Source of the DNA: Bacteroidota bacterium
Lineage (GTDB): Bacteria > Bacteroidota > Ignavibacteria > UBA10030 > F1-140-MAGs086
Assembly (NCBI GenBank): GCA_005792205.1
Contig: SXSO01000138.1
Span: 1-36,575, forward strand
Direction: 5' to 3'
Length of the DNA: 36,575 bases
Part shown: positions 147 through 36,575 of the stretch, piece after piece
Layout of the letters: each line of letters opens with the position of its first letter
How positions within the stretch are numbered: position 1 is the stretch's first letter
The notes under the pieces: model-generated
What the model was told of the DNA's origin: nothing
What the model saw: the letters and a program-made list of their open reading frames with translations, nothing else
The model's database searches: none
Translations under genes and position numbers: made by a program

Positions 147-203
147 TTTTTGGGAAATTGGAAAATTGGTTTAATAATGACAAATTATTTCTCTAAAAAT
201 TGG

Positions 204-413
204 AGTGTTTTTTCACATAAGAAGAGAGTTTTTCCTCGTCGGAATGGTTTACTTTTGACCGAAACGGTGCTAATTTATTGAGTGAAATCGCCATATTACA
301 TAAACTCATTATATTACAATATCAATCGATTTGACAGGAAAAAATTTCCACTTTATTATAATAAATAGGAAAATTTTTCCGTTCCAAATTATTTCTCAAA
401 ATAACGATTTTGG
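204..413 (+). repeat. Intergenic 21-bp-phased repeat element, copy A (10 units)
   Basis: Reads in 21-mers: AGTGTTTTTTCACATAAGAAG / AGAGTTTTTCCTCGTCGGAAT / GGTTTACTTTTGACCGAAACG / GTGCTAATTTATTGAGTGAAA / TCGCCATATTACATAAACTCA / TTATATTACAATATCAATCGA and so on; aligns unit-for-unit with copy B. Confidence 0.8.
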
Positions 414-571
414 ATAGTAAATACCAATATAAAGTAACAATCAAATTTTTTAAAAGTAAAATATGACTTTAAGTATTTCTAACAATTGTATTTCGTTTGT
501 AAATAAATAATATTTGTTATATCTTCTACAAATAACAATCCCTTTTTTAAACATTATTTTTTTTGTGTTAT

Positions 572-3500
572 ATGCAATTACGACTAATTTATTATCTGTT
601 AATTATCAGTTTGGTCACTCTTTTCACAGGAGAACATTTTGCTTATTCACAAACTGTTAATTTTCCTTTTCCACAACATTTCACTTATACCGAAGGGACT
701 ATTTTCCCGTCAAATTATACTCAGCAACAACTTGATGATTCTACTTCTGTCTTTTACACGCGATGGAAAGAACGATATCTAATCAACGGTTGCGAACCGA
801 ATCAATATTATGTTTTCTGGAATTATGAAGGAGGTGGAAATCCACCAAATAGTATATCTATTTCCGAAGGACACGGTTACGGAATGATAATTACTGCGTT
901 GTTTGCGGGTTTCGATGTAAATGCAAAAAATTATTTTGATGGATTATACCGATACTTCAAAACTCATCCCACTGAAAGCGATTCTTTCTTAATGGCATGG
1001 AATCAAATTACCGGATGTGTCAATGCCGCAAACGGCGGAACAAGTGCTACCGATGGGGATTTGGATATTGCATACGCATTATTGCTTGCAGATAAACAAT
1101 GGGGAAGCAACGGAGAAATTGATTATCTCGCAGAAGCAAAAAATATACTTTTATCGCTTGAACAAAATTGTATAAATCCGATAACGTCAACAGTGACATT
1201 AGGAAATTGGGTAAATTCTTCCAATCAAAATTATTACTACGGAACACGAACCTCCGATTTTATGTTCTCGCATTTTCAATCATTTACGCTTGCATCGAAG
1301 AATCCGAAATGGAATCAAGTGAAAGATAAATGCTACGAACTTATTTCTTCCATTCAGAATAATTATAGCGCATCAACTGGCCTTCTTCCCGATTTTATCT
1401 ATCAGGTGAACACACAACCGAAACCCGCTCCTGCAAATTATCTCGAAGGAAATAATGATGGAAAATATTATTACAATGCTTGCCGCGTTCCGTGGAGAGT
1501 TGCTATGGATTATTTACATTACGGAGATATACGCGCAAAAAATTCTTTGGAAAAAATAAATACGTTCATCAAATCCACAACAAATTCTTCTCCGCAAAAT
1601 ATACTTCCAGGTTACGCGCTCAACGGAACGCCAATTCACACCGATTATGTAGATTTACCGTTTATCGCGCCGTTTGCCGTAAGTGCAATGACTGATTATT
1701 CGCATCAGCAGTGGTTAAACTCTATGTGGAATTATCTGCTGACGTTTTCGTTGAATGACGCATCGTATTATGGCAACACACTCAAACTTCTTTCAATGAT
1801 TGCCGTTTCCGGCAATTGGTGGAATCCACAAATTCTAACGTTTGGAAATTCTCTGTATGTTTCTACAAATGGAAACGATAATAATCCCGGAACAGAACTG
1901 TTGCCGTTGAAAACTGTTCAGCGAGCATTGAATATTGCTTCTGCGGGAACTACAATTTTTGTGAAAGAAGGAATCTATAACGAAAAAATTACATTCACTC
2001 ATTCGGGAAATGTGAACGATGGATTTATTACGCTTCGCAATTATGGAGGCGATACTGCAATTCTCGATGGAACAGGAAAAATGGGAGAACAAATGATTTT
2101 GATTGAAAATAAAAGTTATCTCAAAATCATCGGTTTGGAAATACAAAATAATTTGAATCAATCATTTGGTTCGGGAATTTGGATAAAAGGAAACGGAACA
2201 CATATCGAAATCCGCAACAATCGTATTCACGATATGAAAGCAACGACCAACGGTGACGCGATGGCGATTTCTGTGTACGGAACAAACGCAACTCCGTTTT
2301 CCAATATTATCATTGACAGTAACACAATTTACAATTGTCAACCGGGACACAGCGAAGCGCTTACTTTGAACGGAAATGTTGATACGTTTCAAATCACTCA
2401 CAATATCGTTCACGACGTAAACAACATTGGCATTGATATGATTGGCGGCGAAGGAACGTGTCCCGATGCAAATCAGGATGCGGCAAGAAATGGAATTTGC
2501 AGAAACAATATTGTTTATAATGCACATTCCAATTACGGCGGAGGATATGCAGCGGGAATTTATTCTGATGGTGGAATCAATATCATAATTGAAAACAATC
2601 TTGTCTTTTCTTCTGATGCTGGTTTTGAAATCGGCTGTGAAAATCAAGGAAGGATTTCCTCGGGAATTATTTTGCGAAATAACATAGCATATAACAATGA
2701 TAAACGTGGAATTGGAATCGGCGGATATAATTTTCCGCAAACGGGAAAAGTTATCAATTCGTATATCGTGAACAATACACTTTTTAATAATGATATTCTG
2801 AATACAACTGAAGGAGAATTGGTTGTGGAATACACGCAAAATTGTTGGTTTGAAAACAATATTTTTTATGCTTCATCGCAAAATCGGTTGTTCGTAACAA
2901 CAGTCGGAAACAATAGTGGAAATATTTTCAATCACAATACTTGGTATTCTCCCGGTGGAAATTCATCTGTAACGATAGATTTCAACGGAACGATATATTC
3001 TTCATTTACTGCGTATCAGAACGGAACGGGACAAGACGGAAATTCAGTTTTCGGAAATCCCCTCTTCATTTTTCCATCTTCGTCGTTTCCCGATTTTCAT
3101 CTTCTCAATAATTCTCCCGCAATAAATATTGGCAATAATTCGCTTTCAACAATATTAGGAAATTTTGATTATGATGGAAACGAACGAATCCAAAATGGAA
3201 TTGTTGATTGTGGCGCGTTTGAAATGAACACGAATGCGCCAAATCCGCCACAAAATTTAACTGTTGCTGGAAATGATTCGCTGGTAATTTTGCGATGGAA
3301 TAAAAATTCAGAAAATAATATTCTTCGCTACAGAATCTACGGAAGTACAACGTTTCATCCGATTTCACAAATTGATTCTACAACTGATACTTCAATTACC
3401 ATTGTGAATTTACAACGCGGAGTGCAATACTATTTTCGCATCACATCAGTAAATACAGAAATTTTGGAAAGCGGTTTTTCTAATGAAGTTAATTTTACTA

Positions 3501-4555
3501 CGCTTGCGTTTCAAATGTTTCGCACATTCAAATCGGATACTTCGCTTTCAAAAAAAGCAAATAAAGTAAAAATAAAAAAGAATGTTATAACAGTTTTTCC
3601 AAACATCGCAACGGTTATTGAAAATATTTTCATAACAAATGGAAAAATATTTAGACTGAATTTGGGAATTCCTCAAACATCTACAAATACAAAGAAATAT
3701 GCGTGGTTACAATTTAAAAAGTCGTCAGAAATTGGAAACCTTTATACGTCATCTCACACGGATAATGGAATTGCGTATCCAATTGATTCACTTCGCAGTG
3801 GAACGAAAGCAAAAAAAATGTCAAAAGCAATTACACCAACAAGAAAAAATTTTGACAACATTGCGTTTGAGCAAGGAGTTGTTTTTAAAATGAACATTGT
3901 TGCAAGTGAAGACACAATTCTTCCGTATGGATTTGGAGATTTGATTTTGGACACTTCATTTGTGTTTATTGGCAAAAATTTAAATGGAATGGCATTAAAA
4001 AATATTGCAATTTATTTTGATTCCGTTATGACGTATTGGGAAATTTTTGGAATAAATAATCAAACTCAATATGAAAATTTGTATTCATTTTCAAAACATA
4101 TTTTGAAGCGAATTAACGATGGTTTTTTTGCTCTAATGGATACATCAAATTATGAAATTGACAAAAATGTAATTGTAAAAAAACCGTATTCTGTGAAATT
4201 GGATGGAGTAAAACTCGCTTCTGAAATTGGAATTATAAAACAATTTACCGAAAAAAATATTTCTAACTTTTCAGAGGAAAATAATTTTCTCGATAAATTT
4301 TCATTGAAACAAAATTATCCAAATCCATTTAATCCGAAAACAAAAATAAAATATGAAATTGCAAAAAGTGGATTTGTAAATTTAAAAGTGTTTGATGTTT
4401 TAGGTCGTGAAATAAAAACACTTGTAAATGAATCTCAAAATGTTGGAACTTACGAAATTGATTTTGATGCGAGTCATTTGAACAGTGGAATGTATTTTTA
4501 CAAACTCACGACAAATAATTTTTCTGAAATGAAGAAAATGATTTTAGTAAAATAA
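572..4555 (+). CDS. Secreted multidomain protein: GH8 glycoside hydrolase + right-handed beta-helix (DUF1565-like) + fibronectin-III-like + unassigned domain + T9SS C-terminal sorting domain
   Basis: ORF 563..4555; the ATG at 572 is preferred over the TTG at 563. GH8 motifs SEGHGYGMIITALFAG and DGDLDIAYALLLADKQWG; LYVSTNGNDNNPGTELLPLKTVQRALNIA beta-helix start; FSLKQNYPNPFNPKTKIKYEI...MKKMILVK sorting domain; N-terminal signal peptide. Confidence 0.9.
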   Translation: MQLRLIYYLLIISLVTLFTGEHFAYSQTVNFPFPQHFTYTEGTIFPSNYTQQQLDDSTSVFYTRWKERYLINGCEPNQYYVFWNYEGGGNPPNSISISEGHGYGMIITALFAGFDVNAKNYFDGLYRYFKTHPTESDSFLMAWNQITGCVNAANGGTSATDGDLDIAYALLLADKQWGSNGEIDYLAEAKNILLSLEQNCINPITSTVTLGNWVNSSNQNYYYGTRTSDFMFSHFQSFTLASKNPKWNQVKDKCYELISSIQNNYSASTGLLPDFIYQVNTQPKPAPANYLEGNNDGKYYYNACRVPWRVAMDYLHYGDIRAKNSLEKINTFIKSTTNSSPQNILPGYALNGTPIHTDYVDLPFIAPFAVSAMTDYSHQQWLNSMWNYLLTFSLNDASYYGNTLKLLSMIAVSGNWWNPQILTFGNSLYVSTNGNDNNPGTELLPLKTVQRALNIASAGTTIFVKEGIYNEKITFTHSGNVNDGFITLRNYGGDTAILDGTGKMGEQMILIENKSYLKIIGLEIQNNLNQSFGSGIWIKGNGTHIEIRNNRIHDMKATTNGDAMAISVYGTNATPFSNIIIDSNTIYNCQPGHSEALTLNGNVDTFQITHNIVHDVNNIGIDMIGGEGTCPDANQDAARNGICRNNIVYNAHSNYGGGYAAGIYSDGGINIIIENNLVFSSDAGFEIGCENQGRISSGIILRNNIAYNNDKRGIGIGGYNFPQTGKVINSYIVNNTLFNNDILNTTEGELVVEYTQNCWFENNIFYASSQNRLFVTTVGNNSGNIFNHNTWYSPGGNSSVTIDFNGTIYSSFTAYQNGTGQDGNSVFGNPLFIFPSSSFPDFHLLNNSPAINIGNNSLSTILGNFDYDGNERIQNGIVDCGAFEMNTNAPNPPQNLTVAGNDSLVILRWNKNSENNILRYRIYGSTTFHPISQIDSTTDTSITIVNLQRGVQYYFRITSVNTEILESGFSNEVNFTTLAFQMFRTFKSDTSLSKKANKVKIKKNVITVFPNIATVIENIFITNGKIFRLNLGIPQTSTNTKKYAWLQFKKSSEIGNLYTSSHTDNGIAYPIDSLRSGTKAKKMSKAITPTRKNFDNIAFEQGVVFKMNIVASEDTILPYGFGDLILDTSFVFIGKNLNGMALKNIAIYFDSVMTYWEIFGINNQTQYENLYSFSKHILKRINDGFFALMDTSNYEIDKNVIVKKPYSVKLDGVKLASEIGIIKQFTEKNISNFSEENNFLDKFSLKQNYPNPFNPKTKIKYEIAKSGFVNLKVFDVLGREIKTLVNESQNVGTYEIDFDASHLNSGMYFYKLTTNNFSEMKKMILVK

Positions 4556-4587
4556 GTTTTTAGTCGTTATCGTCGTTAAAAGAAAAT

Positions 4588-4618
4588 GGGATACAAAGTT
4601 TTTTGTGTCCCATTTTTG
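4588..4618 (+). terminator. Rho-independent terminator of the GH8 gene
   Basis: GGGATACAAAGTTTTTTGTGTCCCATTTTTG, identical to the hairpin at 116..146. Confidence 0.8.
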
Positions 4619-4675
4619 TTTTTGGGAAATTGGAAAATTAGTTTAATAATGACAAATTATTTCTCTAAAAATTGG

Positions 4676-4988
4676 AGTGTTTTTTCACACAAGAAGAGTA
4701 TTTTTCCTCGTCGAAATGCTTTACTTTTGACCGAAACGATAGTGTTTTCGTAAAAATACACTCTATTTTCGGGAAAGTGTAATCAAATCGGTCAAAAAAC
4801 GCTTCACCGAGACGAAAATGAAGTCATTTTTGACCGAAACGGGACGAAATTATTGACTAAAATCTCCATATTACAAAAAGCCATTTTATTACAATATCAA
4901 TCGATTTGATAGGAAAAGATTTCCTCTTTTAGACAACAAAACGATAAATTTTTCCGTTCCAAACTTGTTCTCCAAAACAACGAGTTTA
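4676..4988 (+). repeat. Intergenic 21-bp-phased repeat element, copy B (15 units, one 2-bp deletion)
   Basis: AGTGTTTTTTCACACAAGAAG / AGTATTTTTCCTCGTCGAAAT / GCTTTACTTTTGACCGAAACG / ATAGTGTTTTCGTAAAAATAC / ACTCTATTTTCGGGAAAGTGT / AATCAAATCGGTCAAAAAACG / CTTCACCGAGACGAAAATGAA and so on; length 313 = 15x21-2. Confidence 0.8.
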
Positions 4989-5107
4989 GACAAATAAATA
5001 TCACTCCAAAATCTGGTTTCATAAATAAAAGAAAATCCATTTACAGAAAAATAAAACTGGATTTACAAGTTTAAAATTTTATTTCCAATTTCAATTTATC
5101 AAAATAA

Positions 5108-9963: not shown

Positions 9964-9996
9964 AAAAAGGTAAGTTGAAAAACTTACCTTTTTTAT
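9964..9996 (+). terminator. Rho-independent terminator after HU
   Basis: AAAAAGGTAAGTTgaaaAACTTACCTTTTTT perfect stem and T-run. Confidence 0.85.
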
Positions 9997-10060
9997 TTTA
10001 TAGAACACTCATTTTAGTGCCATATTTATTGACTGAAATTATGATTTGTATCATATGAAT

Positions 10061-10312
10061 GGAGTGGAAAGTTTTTCCGTTCTGATATGTTTTTTATAGA
10101 AATTTATTATATAATACAAAGAAATTTCACTCAATAGATTTGGTGTTTTTTCGAAACAAAATGACTTCATTTTCGTCTCGGTGAAGCGTTTTTTGACCGA
10201 TTTGATTACACTTTCCCGAAAATAGAGTGTATTTTTACGAAAACACTATCGTTTCGGTCAAAAGTAAACCATTCCGACGAGGAAAAACACTCTTCTTGTG
10301 TCACAAAACACT
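10061..10312 (-). repeat. Intergenic 21-bp-phased repeat element, copy C (12 units, inverted relative to A/B)
   Basis: Minus strand reads as 12x21 = 252 bp: AGTGTTTTGTGACACAAGAAG / AGTGTTTTTCCTCGTCGGAAT / GGTTTACTTTTGACCGAAACG / ATAGTGTTTTCGTAAAAATAC / ACTCTATTTTCGGGAAAGTGT and so on; 111 bp identical (inverted) to copy B. Confidence 0.8.
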
Positions 10313-10475
10313 CCGAAATTTTCAAAATAAACCCCAAAAAATCATCAATAATTACAGTGCTTTACGAGACAACGTCAACTCAATCAATTTTACAAAATAA
10401 AATTTAATTTCATAAAAAATATTTTGCAAACAAATTTTATCTCTTCGTATATTTTAGAAAAAAAATTATAAATTT

Positions 10476-18252: not shown

Positions 18253-18370
18253 AAAAAAATTGAGTATAAAAATAAGAAAGTTTTATTGAAAGAATTTGTT
18301 TTAACACATTTAAACTCGTAAAAATAAATAATTATTTTTCTTTTATTGAATTTATTTTGAAAAATTTTGG

Positions 18371-18538
18371 TGTGTTTTTTCCCAAAAGAAGAGTGTTTTT
18401 CTTCGTCAAAATGGTTTACTTTTGACCGAAATGATGATATTTTTGCAAAAATACATTCTATTTTTGGAAAAATATCATCATTTCGGTCACAAACATAGTA
18501 TTCCGAATCAATAGATTAAACAGGAAAAAATTTCCTCT
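18371..18538 (+). repeat. Intergenic 21-bp-phased repeat element, copy D (8 units)
   Basis: TGTGTTTTTTCCCAAAAGAAG / AGTGTTTTTCTTCGTCAAAAT / GGTTTACTTTTGACCGAAATG / ATGATATTTTTGCAAAAATAC / ATTCTATTTTTGGAAAAATAT / CATCATTTCGGTCACAAACAT / AGTATTCCGAATCAATAGATT / AAACAGGAAAAAATTTCCTCT. Confidence 0.75.
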
Positions 18539-18551
18539 TTAAAACAAAAAT

Positions 18552-18582
18552 AAAAAAGGGACACAAAAAAACTTTGTATCCC
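18552..18582 (-). terminator. Rho-independent terminator of the SBBP/T9SS gene
   Basis: Minus strand GGGATACAAAGTTTTTTTGTGTCCCTTTTTT; same hairpin as at 116 and 4588. Confidence 0.8.
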
Positions 18583-18614
18583 ATTTTCTTTTAACGACGA
18601 TAACGACTAAAAAT

Positions 18615-21131
18615 TTATTTTACTAAAATCATTTTCTTCATTTCAGAAAAATTATTTGTCGTCAATTTGTAAAAATAAATTCCACTGTTTAAATTTGTTG
18701 CATCAAAATCAATTTCGTAAAATCCACTTTCCATTTCTTCATTATTTATTAGTGTAGAAATTTCACGTCCAAGAACATCATAAATTTTTAACGACACATT
18801 TTCAACATCAACTAACGAAAATAAAATCGTTGTCTTCGGATTAAATGGATTTGGATAATTTTGTTGCAAAGAAAATTTCGTCGGTGAAAAATTTTCTGCA
18901 TCAAGAAAATCTTCGTTTAAATTTTTCCCTGAATTATCTTTTACAATTGGAACATCAATTGAAGGATATGCAACTCCATCAAGTGTTACTGCATAAGATT
19001 TTTTCAAATTTAAAACAGCATTTTGATCAACAGTATAGTTTGATGTATCAAATGTTGCACTGAATCCTTCATTTATTCTTCGCAAAATATTTTCAGAAAA
19101 TGAATACAAATTTTTATACGCATCTGAATTTGTTACACTATTCAAAGACCAAAATGTTGCAAGTGAATCCATATAGTTTGCAATTTGTTTTAAAGATAAT
19201 CCATAAATATCTCGTCCCATAAACGTAAATGAAGTATCTAAAATTAGATCTTCAAATCCATTTGGTGTAACAAAAACTTTACTTGCAGCAATGTTAAGTT
19301 TAAACAACATTCCTTGTTCCAAAAATTTATTATTGTAGTTATCGCGTTTTGGTTTTATTGCTTTAGCAAGTTTTTTTCCCGTAGATTTTCCTGTTGAAAC
19401 ATTTCTCACATAATCAAGTGGGAATGATGTGTCAGAAATTGTGTGAGAAGAAGTATAAAGTTTTCCTAAATCAGTTGATTTTTTAAATTCAATCCACGCA
19501 ATTGTTTTTGCTAAAGTTGTATTTGTTGTACTTACACCAAATACAACTGCACTTCCTTTTGGTGTTTGTGATTGAAATACGTTTTCAACTGCTGTAACAA
19601 GATTGGGAGCAGTTTTAAATGTAACTTTATCTTTGTTGTAAACAATTTTTTTTAATTTATCTGAAAGAGAAATTTCAGATTTGAATGTTCTATATTTTCC
19701 TGAAATGTTTTGTTCAAATCCATATTTTGCAATAAAAATATCATATGAACTATGTGAATTAGTTGTCATAACAGAATCAAATGTCATAACTTGACTATCA
19801 TAATATCCTGTTATGAAATAATTTCCATCGGTATCAACTGTTATACTTTGACCTTTATCTAAATCACCACCACCACCATTTTCAACTAATACAACATTTC
19901 CATTTGCATCATATTTTGCAATGAAAATATCTGATGATGTTGTAGATGTATTTGTAATTGTAATTGTACCAAAACTTGCTGATGTTCCTGAAAAATATCC
20001 CGTGATAAAACTATTTCCACTTCCGTCTACAAAAATATCCCAACCAAAATCATCACTTGTTCCTCCTGCACTTTTTACCCATTTAAAAATTCCATTTGCA
20101 TCATATTTTACAATAAAAATATCGCTTCCACTTCCTTGATGGTTTGTTACAGAACCACTTCCAAATTCAATTGAATTACTTTTGAAATATCCAACTGTAT
20201 AAACATTTCCATTGTCATCTACATCAAGTGAATATGTTTTATCTTCATCTCCACCAACTCCACTTTTTGCCCAAAGAACTTCTCCATCTGCATCAAACTT
20301 TGTAATGAAGACATCTGCATCTCCATCATTGGTTAAAGTTGCCGTTGTATCAAATGTAAGTGTTGAGCTATAAAAAAATCCAGAAATAAAACTATTTCCA
20401 CTGTTGTCAACTGTGATTCCACTTCCAACATCGTTATATTCTTCACCAAAACTTTTTGCCCACGTAATTTCACCATCAGCAGTTGAAAGTTTTGCAATAA
20501 AAATATCTCCACTTACAGTTGTATCACTATTATTAAACAAAGCAGAGTTTCCAAACGTAATTGTGTTACTATAAAAAACACCAGTGATATACACATTGTT
20601 ATTATCTGTTGCAATGTCTAAACTATAATCTGCGTTTTCATTTCCAAATCTTTTTGCCCATTCAACTTCACCATTAGCAGAAGAAAGTTTTGCAATAAAT
20701 ATATCTTCATTTCCTGCAGATGTTAAAGTTGTTGAGCCAAATTCAATAGCATTTTTAAAATATCCTGTAATATAAATATTTCCATTGTCATCAATATCTA
20801 TATTTTTACATTCATCTGTATTTGTTCCACCAAAACTTTTTGCCCAAACAACATTTCCACTTGAATTATATTTTACAACGAAAACATCTGCAAGTCCATT
20901 ACTTGTCAAAATTGTTGAACCAAAAGTTGTTATTTCCGAACTTTCAAAATATCCTGTAATATAAATGTTTCCATTGTTATCCGTAACAATACTTTGTCCA
21001 TAATCATTTCCATTTCCTCCAGAAGTTCTAGCAAATTGCCATTCAGGTGTTTGTGAAAAAGTTTCAGTAAAAAATGCAACACAAATTAAAATTGTTGCAA
21101 TAATATTTTTAGTTTTTAACGTAATGTTCAT
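18615..21131 (-). CDS. Secreted SBBP-type beta-propeller protein + unassigned domain + T9SS C-terminal sorting domain
   Basis: Repeated D..GN.YITGYF.S..ITFG...L.......DIFIAK(L/Y) units; FSLQQNYPNPFNPKTTILFSL...YFYKLTTNNFSEMKKMILVK; signal peptide. Confidence 0.9.
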   Translation of the reverse strand: MNITLKTKNIIATILICVAFFTETFSQTPEWQFARTSGGNGNDYGQSIVTDNNGNIYITGYFESSEITTFGSTILTSNGLADVFVVKYNSSGNVVWAKSFGGTNTDECKNIDIDDNGNIYITGYFKNAIEFGSTTLTSAGNEDIFIAKLSSANGEVEWAKRFGNENADYSLDIATDNNNVYITGVFYSNTITFGNSALFNNSDTTVSGDIFIAKLSTADGEITWAKSFGEEYNDVGSGITVDNSGNSFISGFFYSSTLTFDTTATLTNDGDADVFITKFDADGEVLWAKSGVGGDEDKTYSLDVDDNGNVYTVGYFKSNSIEFGSGSVTNHQGSGSDIFIVKYDANGIFKWVKSAGGTSDDFGWDIFVDGSGNSFITGYFSGTSASFGTITITNTSTTSSDIFIAKYDANGNVVLVENGGGGDLDKGQSITVDTDGNYFITGYYDSQVMTFDSVMTTNSHSSYDIFIAKYGFEQNISGKYRTFKSEISLSDKLKKIVYNKDKVTFKTAPNLVTAVENVFQSQTPKGSAVVFGVSTTNTTLAKTIAWIEFKKSTDLGKLYTSSHTISDTSFPLDYVRNVSTGKSTGKKLAKAIKPKRDNYNNKFLEQGMLFKLNIAASKVFVTPNGFEDLILDTSFTFMGRDIYGLSLKQIANYMDSLATFWSLNSVTNSDAYKNLYSFSENILRRINEGFSATFDTSNYTVDQNAVLNLKKSYAVTLDGVAYPSIDVPIVKDNSGKNLNEDFLDAENFSPTKFSLQQNYPNPFNPKTTILFSLVDVENVSLKIYDVLGREISTLINNEEMESGFYEIDFDATNLNSGIYFYKLTTNNFSEMKKMILVK

Positions 21132-26597: not shown

Positions 26598-26807
26598 CGA
26601 CTTTACATGATGTAAAAACCACTTTACCTATTAGGTAAATGACTTTTTATGACATGTAAACTACTTTACATGTCAAGTAAACGACTTTTTATATCATAAA
26701 CGGTGTATTTTATGCCATGTAAACCACTTTTTATGTCAAGTACATCACTTTTTGTGTCATAAAATTGACTTTTTGTATAGTAAAAAGTGGTTTTTTGAAC
26801 CGAAACG
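26598..26807 (+). repeat. Intergenic 21-bp-phased repeat element, copy E: ten contiguous, gap-free 21-mers
   Basis: CGACTTTACATGATGTAAAAA / CCACTTTACCTATTAGGTAAA / TGACTTTTTATGACATGTAAA / CTACTTTACATGTCAAGTAAA / CGACTTTTTATATCATAAACG / GTGTATTTTATGCCATGTAAA / CCACTTTTTATGTCAAGTACA / TCACTTTTTGTGTCATAAAAT / TGACTTTTTGTATAGTAAAAA / GTGGTTTTTTGAACCGAAACG. Confidence 0.92.
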
Positions 26808-26866
26808 GGATTTTTTTATATTAAATAAATGATATTTTTTCTCATCTTTAAAAAATTTTTTTTGAG

Positions 26867-34139: not shown

Positions 34140-34843
34140 TATGTTAATTGTAATTTGTTATTTAATCTTCCTATAAATTCTTCTTTTATTTCTTCTATTT
34201 TTACATTGAAAACTCGACTAAAATTTTCCACTAATTTTTTTTGAACTTCACTTAAATTTATTTTTTTGTTCAAAACTTTTTCTATTGAAGTTACTCCTTT
34301 GTGAAAAATTCCACACGGAATAATTTTTTCAAAATGATTCAAATTTGTATTTACATTTAAAGCAAATCCATGCATTGTTATCCAACTTTTTACTTTAATT
34401 CCAATTGCAGCAATTTTATTTCCTTCAACCCAAACACCTGTAAAATCACTATCTTTTTTTCCTTGTATATCAAAATATTTCAAAGTCAAAATTATTACTT
34501 CTTCAATATCTCGAAGATATTTATGAATATCCAAATAATAATTTTCTAAATTTAAAATTGGATAACCTACAATTTGTCCAATTCCATGAAATGTTATATC
34601 ACCACCTCTATCAATATTGTAAGTATTTATTCCATCAATTTTTAGTTCACTTTCATTTGCAAGAAGATGCGTTTCACTTCCATTTCTCCCAATTGTATAA
34701 ACACTATTGTGTTCAGTTAAAATTAGAACATCTTCAATTTGATTTTCTTTGCGAAGAGAAAAAATTTCTTTTTGTAAATTCCAAATATCATAAAAATCTG
34801 TTATACCAAGTGAAAGTAATTTTACAGTTTTACTTTTCATCAA
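34139..34843 (-). CDS. lipB: Lipoyl(octanoyl) transferase
   Basis: VLILTEHNSVYTIGRNGSETHLL...NIDRGGDITFHGIGQIVGYPILNL...GIKVKSWITMHGFALNVNTNL. Confidence 0.95.
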   Translation of the reverse strand: MMKSKTVKLLSLGITDFYDIWNLQKEIFSLRKENQIEDVLILTEHNSVYTIGRNGSETHLLANESELKIDGINTYNIDRGGDITFHGIGQIVGYPILNLENYYLDIHKYLRDIEEVIILTLKYFDIQGKKDSDFTGVWVEGNKIAAIGIKVKSWITMHGFALNVNTNLNHFEKIIPCGIFHKGVTSIEKVLNKKINLSEVQKKLVENFSRVFNVKIEEIKEEFIGRLNNKLQLT

Positions 34844-36252
34844 ATGTGAATTGATTTTCCATATGCATTTTCTGCTGCTTCCATAATTGCTTCGGAAAGT
34901 GTTGGATGTGCATGAATTGTATGTGCAATTCCCTCCACTGTTGTTTCAAGTGTTTTTGCAACAGAAAGTTCGGCAATCATTTCAGTTGCCTCACTTCCTA
35001 AAATATGTGCTCCAAGAAGTTCACCATATTTTTCATCAAATATAAGTTTGACTAATCCATCTGTTTTTCCAATTGCTCTTGCTTTTCCACTTGCGGAAAA
35101 TGGAAATCTTCCAACTTTAATTTTATATCCATTTTGAATTGCTTTTTCTTCTGTCATTCCAATGCTTGCAACTTGCGGTTCGCAATATGTACAAGATGGG
35201 AAGTTTTCCCAATCAATTGGGTTTGGATTTTTTCCCGCAATTTTTTCAACGCAAATGATTCCTTCTTTTGAAGCAATGTGAGCAAGAAGTGGTGGTCCTG
35301 CAACATCTCCAATTGCATAAATTCCATCTACATTTGTTTTTCCAAAATCATCTACAACAATAAATCCTTTTTCTATTTTTATTCCAACATTTTCTAATCC
35401 AATGTTTTCAATATTTGCTTGAATACCAATTGCATTCAATACAATTTCAGATTCAATTTCTTTCTTTCCACTTTTATTTGAAATAACTGTTTTTATTTTT
35501 TTTCCTTCAACAACATTTTCAACTTTTGTTTCGGTTAAAATTTCAATTCCTTGTTTTTTGAAATTGCTTTCCAAAAGTTTTGAGATTTCTTTATCTTCCA
35601 TCGGAAGTATATTTGGAAGCATTTCAATAAGTGTAACTTTTGTTCCAAATGTGTTATAGAAATACGCAAACTCAATTCCAATTGCTCCAGCACCAATTAT
35701 TGTCATTGATTTTGGAAGTGTTTTTAATGTCATTGCTGTTTTACTTGTGATAACATTTTTTTCATCCACCTTTATTGTAGGAATTGTTTTTGCTCTTCCT
35801 CCAGTTGCAATGATTATATGTTTTGCTTTTATTTCTTCAACAACTTTTCCATCTTTTGAAATTGTAACTAAATTCTTTCCTAAAATTTTTCCACTTCCTG
35901 AAATGTGCTCAATTTTATTTTTTTTCATTAAGTATTCAATTCCTTTGGAATTTATTTGAGCAACATTTCTACTTCTTTCAATAATTTTTTTGAAATCAAA
36001 TTTTAGTTCTTTATGTGTAATTCCAAATTCATCAGAATGTTTAAAATAGTTATACACTTCTGCATTTTTGAGAAGTGCTTTTGTTGGAATACATCCCCAA
36101 TTTAAACAAACTCCACCGAGTTTTTCTTTTTCTACAATAGCAGTTTTAAAACCAAGTTGAGATGATTTAATTGCGGCAACATAACCTCCCGGACCTCCTC
36201 CAATAACTAATATATCAAACTCTTTTTTGGACATTTTTTTTAAAATTTTCAA
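34840..36252 (-). CDS. lpdA: Dihydrolipoyl dehydrogenase (E3)
   Basis: DILVIGGGPGGYVAAIKSSQLGFKTAIVEKEKLGGVCLNWGCIPTKALLKNAEV...HAHPTLSEAIMEAAENAYG. Confidence 0.97.
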   Translation of the reverse strand: MKILKKMSKKEFDILVIGGGPGGYVAAIKSSQLGFKTAIVEKEKLGGVCLNWGCIPTKALLKNAEVYNYFKHSDEFGITHKELKFDFKKIIERSRNVAQINSKGIEYLMKKNKIEHISGSGKILGKNLVTISKDGKVVEEIKAKHIIIATGGRAKTIPTIKVDEKNVITSKTAMTLKTLPKSMTIIGAGAIGIEFAYFYNTFGTKVTLIEMLPNILPMEDKEISKLLESNFKKQGIEILTETKVENVVEGKKIKTVISNKSGKKEIESEIVLNAIGIQANIENIGLENVGIKIEKGFIVVDDFGKTNVDGIYAIGDVAGPPLLAHIASKEGIICVEKIAGKNPNPIDWENFPSCTYCEPQVASIGMTEEKAIQNGYKIKVGRFPFSASGKARAIGKTDGLVKLIFDEKYGELLGAHILGSEATEMIAELSVAKTLETTVEGIAHTIHAHPTLSEAIMEAAENAYGKSIHI

Positions 36253-36442: not shown

Positions 36443-36575
36443 CCCGTTTCGGTTAAAAAGTGTTCACGTGACATGTAAAGTGGTTTACGGATAGTGTAAA
36501 GTCATTTATAGAAATTGTAAGAAAATGAACTTCTATAATATGGCAATTTCACTCAATAATTTCGTCCCGTTTCGG
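36443..36575 (-). repeat. Intergenic 21-bp-phased repeat element, copy F (truncated by the window edge)
   Basis: Minus strand ...CCGAAACG / GGACGAAATTATTGAGTGAAA / TTGCCATATTATAGAAGTTCA / TTTTCTTACAATTTCTATAAA / TGACTTTACACTATCCGTAAA / CCACTTTACATGTCACGTGAA / CACTTTTTAACCGAAACGGG (one 1-bp deletion); joins A/B-type units to E-type units. Confidence 0.8.

Follow-up and report, generated by a model that had tools for sequence, protein, structure and literature searches.

The window, the whole stretch of 36,575 nucleotides analysed here, is the entire contig C126 of a MAG of 155 contigs (1.235 Mb, estimated to be 62% complete), and the genome-wide counts given below rest on searches and retrieved loci of this MAG. 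Near its right end lies lpd (34840 to 36252, minus strand; probable start ATG at 36234), which encodes dihydrolipoyl dehydrogenase (TIGR01350, 1.9e-176) and has its best match among named relatives, with 77% identity, in Ignavibacteriales-type MAGs. Upstream of lpd the final 140 bases, at the physical right end of the contig, form a repeat copy dubbed F, which is separated from the gene by a terminator-like hairpin on the minus strand (36371 to 36351; 8 pairs, 6 T; one found versus 0.2 expected). In the nearest named relative (locus L095, lpd 77% identical) the intergenic DNA upstream of lpd could not be aligned; it contained no module of the repeat and offered no empty site for comparison.

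Further left the window encodes a T9SS-sorted protein of 1330 amino acids (563 to 4555) which combines a glycoside hydrolase of family 8 with a parallel beta-helix-like part and with fn3. Between 19721 and 21032 there are internal coding repeats of about 190 bp, in the gene of an SBBP beta-propeller protein that carries a T9SS sorting domain. Five other repeat copies, A to E, lie in the window.

Modules of the repeat family

Searches with module sequences found about 38 copies in 1.2 Mb, all of them between called genes, relative to which they run in either direction; the exceptions are a few small reading frames that overlap the repeats and are probably spurious. The copies are built from the modules L (an imperfect palindrome of 160 nt), K (73 nt), R (about 120 nt), U (a tandem unit of 21 bp) and T (about 50 nt). 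Type 1 has the order L-K-R and is represented by copy B (4674 to 5030, plus strand), which is complete, and by copies on the contigs C134, C135, C16 and C31; several copies consist of L alone. Type 2 has the order R(inverted)-U(n)-T (C106, C110, C112, C114, C28, C35, C53, C77 and C129, some cut by contig ends), with one to at least eight U units, and many copies of the family are devoid of U. U-T without R is found in E, at C110:5651, in C147 and in C63.

The remaining copies in the window depart from these orders in different ways. Copy A (202 to 433, plus strand) is L(1-63)-K-R, the interior of L having been deleted between two TTTTGACCGAAAC repeats; A and C135a lack exactly the stretch between these two repeats. 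Copy C (9991 to 10314, minus strand) is L followed by a diverged R-like tail, and in copy D (18369 to 18550, plus strand) L is followed directly by the initial part of R, without K. Copy E (26600 to 26816, plus strand) is of type 2 without R and has at least seven 21-bp units and a long T end.

The first-pass annotation, made from the letters of the window, had united A to D and E into one family by way of F. One family it is, and inside the window F is indeed the sole link, since E is without R. F is nevertheless dispensable for this purpose because R is common to both types elsewhere in the genome: R (GACAGGAAAAAATTTCC...AACGGAAAAATTTTCCGTTCC...) closes the type-1 copies and, inverted relative to the U-to-T direction, opens at least eight type-2 copies. 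In some copies K and the inverted U-T end also have stretches in common, e.g. TACAAAAAGTCATTT, judging by eye.

The annotation had further proposed shuffling at the level of units. This holds for the type-2 arrays, in which 57 units in 15 arrays follow each other in steps of exactly 21 bp, a regularity that supports unit-wise change as read from the sequence, but the other rearrangements are at the level of modules. In one array (C147:147-303, locus L010) units of the sequences ACTATATG and ACTACATG alternate with a super-period of 42 bp, which suggests that units were duplicated pairwise.

Copy F and its junction

Read on the minus strand, F has the order CCGAAACGGGACGAAATTATTGAGTGAAATTGCCATATTATAGAAGTTCATTTTCTTACAATTTCTATAAATG / ACTTTACACTATCCGTAAACC / ACTTTACATGTCACGTGAAC / ACTTTTTAACCGAAACGGGATTTTTT. 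Its first part (36575 to 36504) is the type-1 core K, which begins with CCGAAACGGGACGAAATTATTGAG, is truncated by the contig end and is 81-90% identical over 72 nt to the cores in C87, C120, C134, C135, A and B. In a blast search of the own genome C87 was the best match (90% over 72 nt, E=1.7e-22), with B at 82% and A at 81%; F thus begins like A and B, as had been claimed. Within this part there is no independent 21-bp register. There follow two E-type U units, ACTTTACACTATCCGTAAACC and ACTTTACATGTCACGTGAAC(A), spaced by 21 bp (36502 to 36461), and for the second half of F the best match was C106 (91% over 52 nt, E=8.6e-14). The claimed passage in register into E-type units is borne out by the two units and their spacing, except that the second is 1 nt short (GTGAAC-ACTTTTT), so that the register slips at its end.

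F is closed by the T end ACTTTTTAACCGAAACGGGATTTTTT (36461 to 36436), the last seven letters of which, ATTTTTT (36442 to 36436), lie beyond the range 36443 to 36575 assigned to F in the first-pass annotation. That F ends as E does is right in so far as AACCGAAACGGGATTTTTT terminates F, E (26797 to 26816) and most type-2 copies, but the T end of F is the short form without the CACTTTTTgtatagtAAAAAGTG hairpin, as in C28, C77 and C114, and that of E is the long form. Each of the two halves matches far above chance, and the hybrid is genuine in the assembled sequence. Exact matches to the 12-mer ACCGAAACGGGA number eight in the 1.2 Mb, whereas the reversed control sequence gave none.

A per-base comparison with K-R and U-T copies confined the switch in F to 36510 to 36504 (minus strand), with C87 and C106 as best parents: uninterrupted identity to K ends at position 65 of F and similarity to K at position 72, and identity to U of C106 begins at position 70. 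The interval corresponds to about one third of a 21-bp unit and touches the 4-nt linker TGAC, a contact expected by chance in about half of all cases (simple geometry). Because of this, and because F is a single K-U-T copy, the junction says little on whether breakpoints fall at unit boundaries, and it adds little to the evidence for unit-wise change in the arrays. Among the about 38 copies the combination K-U-T is found only in F, where K and U-T are joined tail to tail, R is absent and the motif CCGAAACGGGA stands at both outer ends. An 8-bp inverted repeat beside the junction (TTATAGAA/TTCTATAA) was considered and judged likely to be due to chance in such AT-rich DNA.

Could F be an assembly chimera, in which two repeat copies were misjoined at the contig end? 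F makes up the final 140 bases of C126, breaks in or close to these repeats are common among the contigs of this MAG, and C16 contains a suspicious join at TTTTTCCGAAAT close to its own left end. Against this, neither half of F is identical to another copy in the assembly (90% and 91% at best), which shows that no known copy was duplicated into the join, and from the two units through the short T end the sequence runs without a break into the unique region upstream of lpd. We therefore regard a misjoin as unlikely.

In C16 (positions 1-262, locus L040, near the left end of the contig) an inverted type-1 copy meets the end of a T9SS gene at a common TTTTTCCGAAAT, which is either a microhomology join or an assembly chimera. 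Contig ends in or near repeats are found at positions 1 and 36575 of the window and in C24, C112, C124, C129, C134, C140, C146, C147, C35 and C59; with so many contig ends in or beside repeats, the real copy number is probably above that observed.

Our preferred reading, to which we give a probability of roughly 0.75, is that F is a mosaic copy within an interspersed repeat family that is MITE-like, non-coding and intergenic, restricted to the species or genus as far as the searches reach, and made up of the modules L, K, R, U and T. A type-1 (K-R) and a type-2 (U-T) copy would have become joined tail to tail, R being lost in the process. The family would initially have been dispersed by a transposition enzyme acting in trans, which did not turn up in the assembly, and its present reshaping would be mainly due to slippage or recombination between short direct repeats; F itself would be without a function of its own. 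The two-part anatomy, the common modules, the copy-number steps of 21 bp and one direct-repeat deletion (in A and C135a) are directly visible in the copies. Against the mosaic MITE reading stand the absence from the assembly of the three transposase families searched for, the lack of a recognised target duplication, the weakness of the type-1 terminal inverted repeat and the fact that the only hybrid lies within 140 nt of a contig end.

Pairing within units and at the ends

The U unit has dyad symmetry, TTTACATG-N-CATGTAAA, and pairing across the 4-nt linker is possible between adjacent units as well. Unit-centred Watson-Crick pairing amounted to 156 versus 144.8 expected, with 6 of 2000 column shuffles as good, in units that are related by tandem duplication; linker-centred pairing was 150 versus 140.6 (24 of 2000 shuffles as good), again with units that are not independent. 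In the arms CTA/TAG are swapped in for ATG/CAT.

These properties would fit an array of protein-binding sites, in which the copies would be kept for binding to the dyad: the period is strictly 21 bp, equal to two helical turns, and the arms match beyond shuffles, the CTA/TAG swap included. The shuffle test, however, was made on units that arose by tandem duplication, arrays range from a single unit to at least eight, many copies are without units, and orientation to genes is not fixed; all of this makes selection for binding an improbable reason for the existence of the arrays.

Several arrays fold better than shuffled sequences (C106, z -7.2; C147, z -8.0), the minus strand mostly being the more stable. 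Since the T end is also terminator-like and many copies adjoin gene terminators, the copies might serve as RNA hairpins or terminators in 3' regions of genes. They stand in both orientations to genes, however, the two units of F do not fold beyond shuffles (z 0.2), the family has no match in Rfam, and in L, where a stem is present, a compensatory change was found in just one of 25 pairs, so that conserved RNA structure of L is not apparent. We consider a role in RNA quite improbable. The pairing and folding results as such fail to separate a role as DNA site from one in RNA.

The ends of type-1 copies form a weak, imperfect inverted repeat (TTTTNGAGTG on the left, CACTCYAAAA on the right). In type 2 no terminal inverted repeats were seen, and inspection of the copy flanks by eye revealed no recognisable target-site duplication. 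L contains CGTCGG inside an arm that is able to pair with CCGACG in many copies.

Distribution, related elements and T9SS gene ends

In 60 relatives no convincing copy was found; the two weak matches (42 nt in G008 and 46 nt in G024) were rejected as family members, being AT-rich, partial and located in unrelated sequence. There was also no copy in the genome_contigs set and in viral contigs when searched with exact degenerate patterns, and none in phages and plasmids when searched with blastn. As far as searched, the repeat is restricted to this species or genus. Domains of transposases (PF01797, Y1; PF01609, DDE_Tnp_1; PF01527, HTH_Tnp_1) are absent from the 62%-complete assembly, in which a RAYT or a DDE transposase as partner was thus looked for without success.

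The best reading of the anatomy, likened by architecture, is that it would work like that of BrickBuilt, BOX and BIMEs and that the repeats represent a new family of a known kind. BrickBuilt is a MITE of Porphyromonas gingivalis, species-restricted and always intergenic, with about 19 copies in which tandem 23-nt units stand between a leader and a tail; some copies lack either of these, and the number of units changes by whole units (PMC4596501). The present repeats are likewise short, non-coding, intergenic and numerous, and type-2 copies and F have a tandem array, changing in whole-unit steps, between non-repeated ends. They differ in the units (23 nt there versus 21 nt and palindromic here, compared by description), in a second form, L-K-R, without unit array, which this family has in addition, and in the terminal inverted repeats, which BrickBuilt has in common with known IS elements (PMC4596501) and for which no such counterpart was found here.

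The pneumococcal BOX element is an intergenic composite of the form boxA-boxB(n)-boxC, in which the middle modules vary and stem-loops are predicted (PMC3049150). The likeness to it is one of architecture only: composite build, a variable middle, location between genes and predicted stem-loops. Number, sizes and order of the modules are different, and BOX has terminal inverted repeats and target-site duplications (PMC3049150), which are not established here. BIMEs, or REPs with their RAYT, consist of palindromic modules in alternating orientation and are enriched downstream of genes (PMC2817692, PMC3733652). The present family is likewise a mosaic whose palindromic modules alternate in orientation and which is over-represented downstream of genes, but the modules are longer, an unpaired GTAG/CGTC tag is not established, and the RAYT (Y1_Tnp) gene is missing from the 62% assembly.

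The copies cluster beside genes ending in a T9SS sorting domain (PF18962). Of these gene ends 23 have sufficient sequence downstream, and 20 of the 23 have a repeat copy within about 110 bp; eight further ends are cut off by the end of their contig. With a roughly guessed background of 18 copies in some 1000 other gaps, a Fisher test gives p ~1e-28, a value for which the number of gaps was estimated and which co-duplication inflates. Different modules in different orientations abut the gene ends, so that one co-duplicated cassette cannot explain all cases.

The 3' end of T9SS genes, together with its terminator GGGACACAAA..TTTGTGTCCC, is a repeat at the DNA level, 76-98% identical, found in the window at 4517 to 4617, 45 to 145 and 18552 to 18653 and at about 28 other places (loci L178-L207). 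Codons for the same residue are identical in a fraction of 0.76-0.86, versus 0.58-0.71 by codon usage, and not just near the repeat. The idea that the domain is copied only as a short 3' tail was discarded, the excess of identical codons over the usage expectation extending along all of the about 80 codons. A more far-reaching proposal is that the repeats and the conserved coding end of the C-terminal domain act as homologous blocks by which secretion tails are exchanged between T9SS cargo genes or duplicated, which would be why the repeats sit behind nearly all of these genes, and that F and other hybrids are by-products; we hold this to be a rather doubtful proposition.

The analysis shows how the two forms of the family are linked, and it calls for caution with MAG contigs of the organism, which are prone to end in such repeats. 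A poorly studied group, whose nearest named relatives are Ignavibacteriales-type MAGs, thereby gains a family of mosaic repeats in which the 21-bp units are palindromic. Should the association with T9SS cargo genes hold up in a closed genome, it would point to a route for copying secretion tails between genes.
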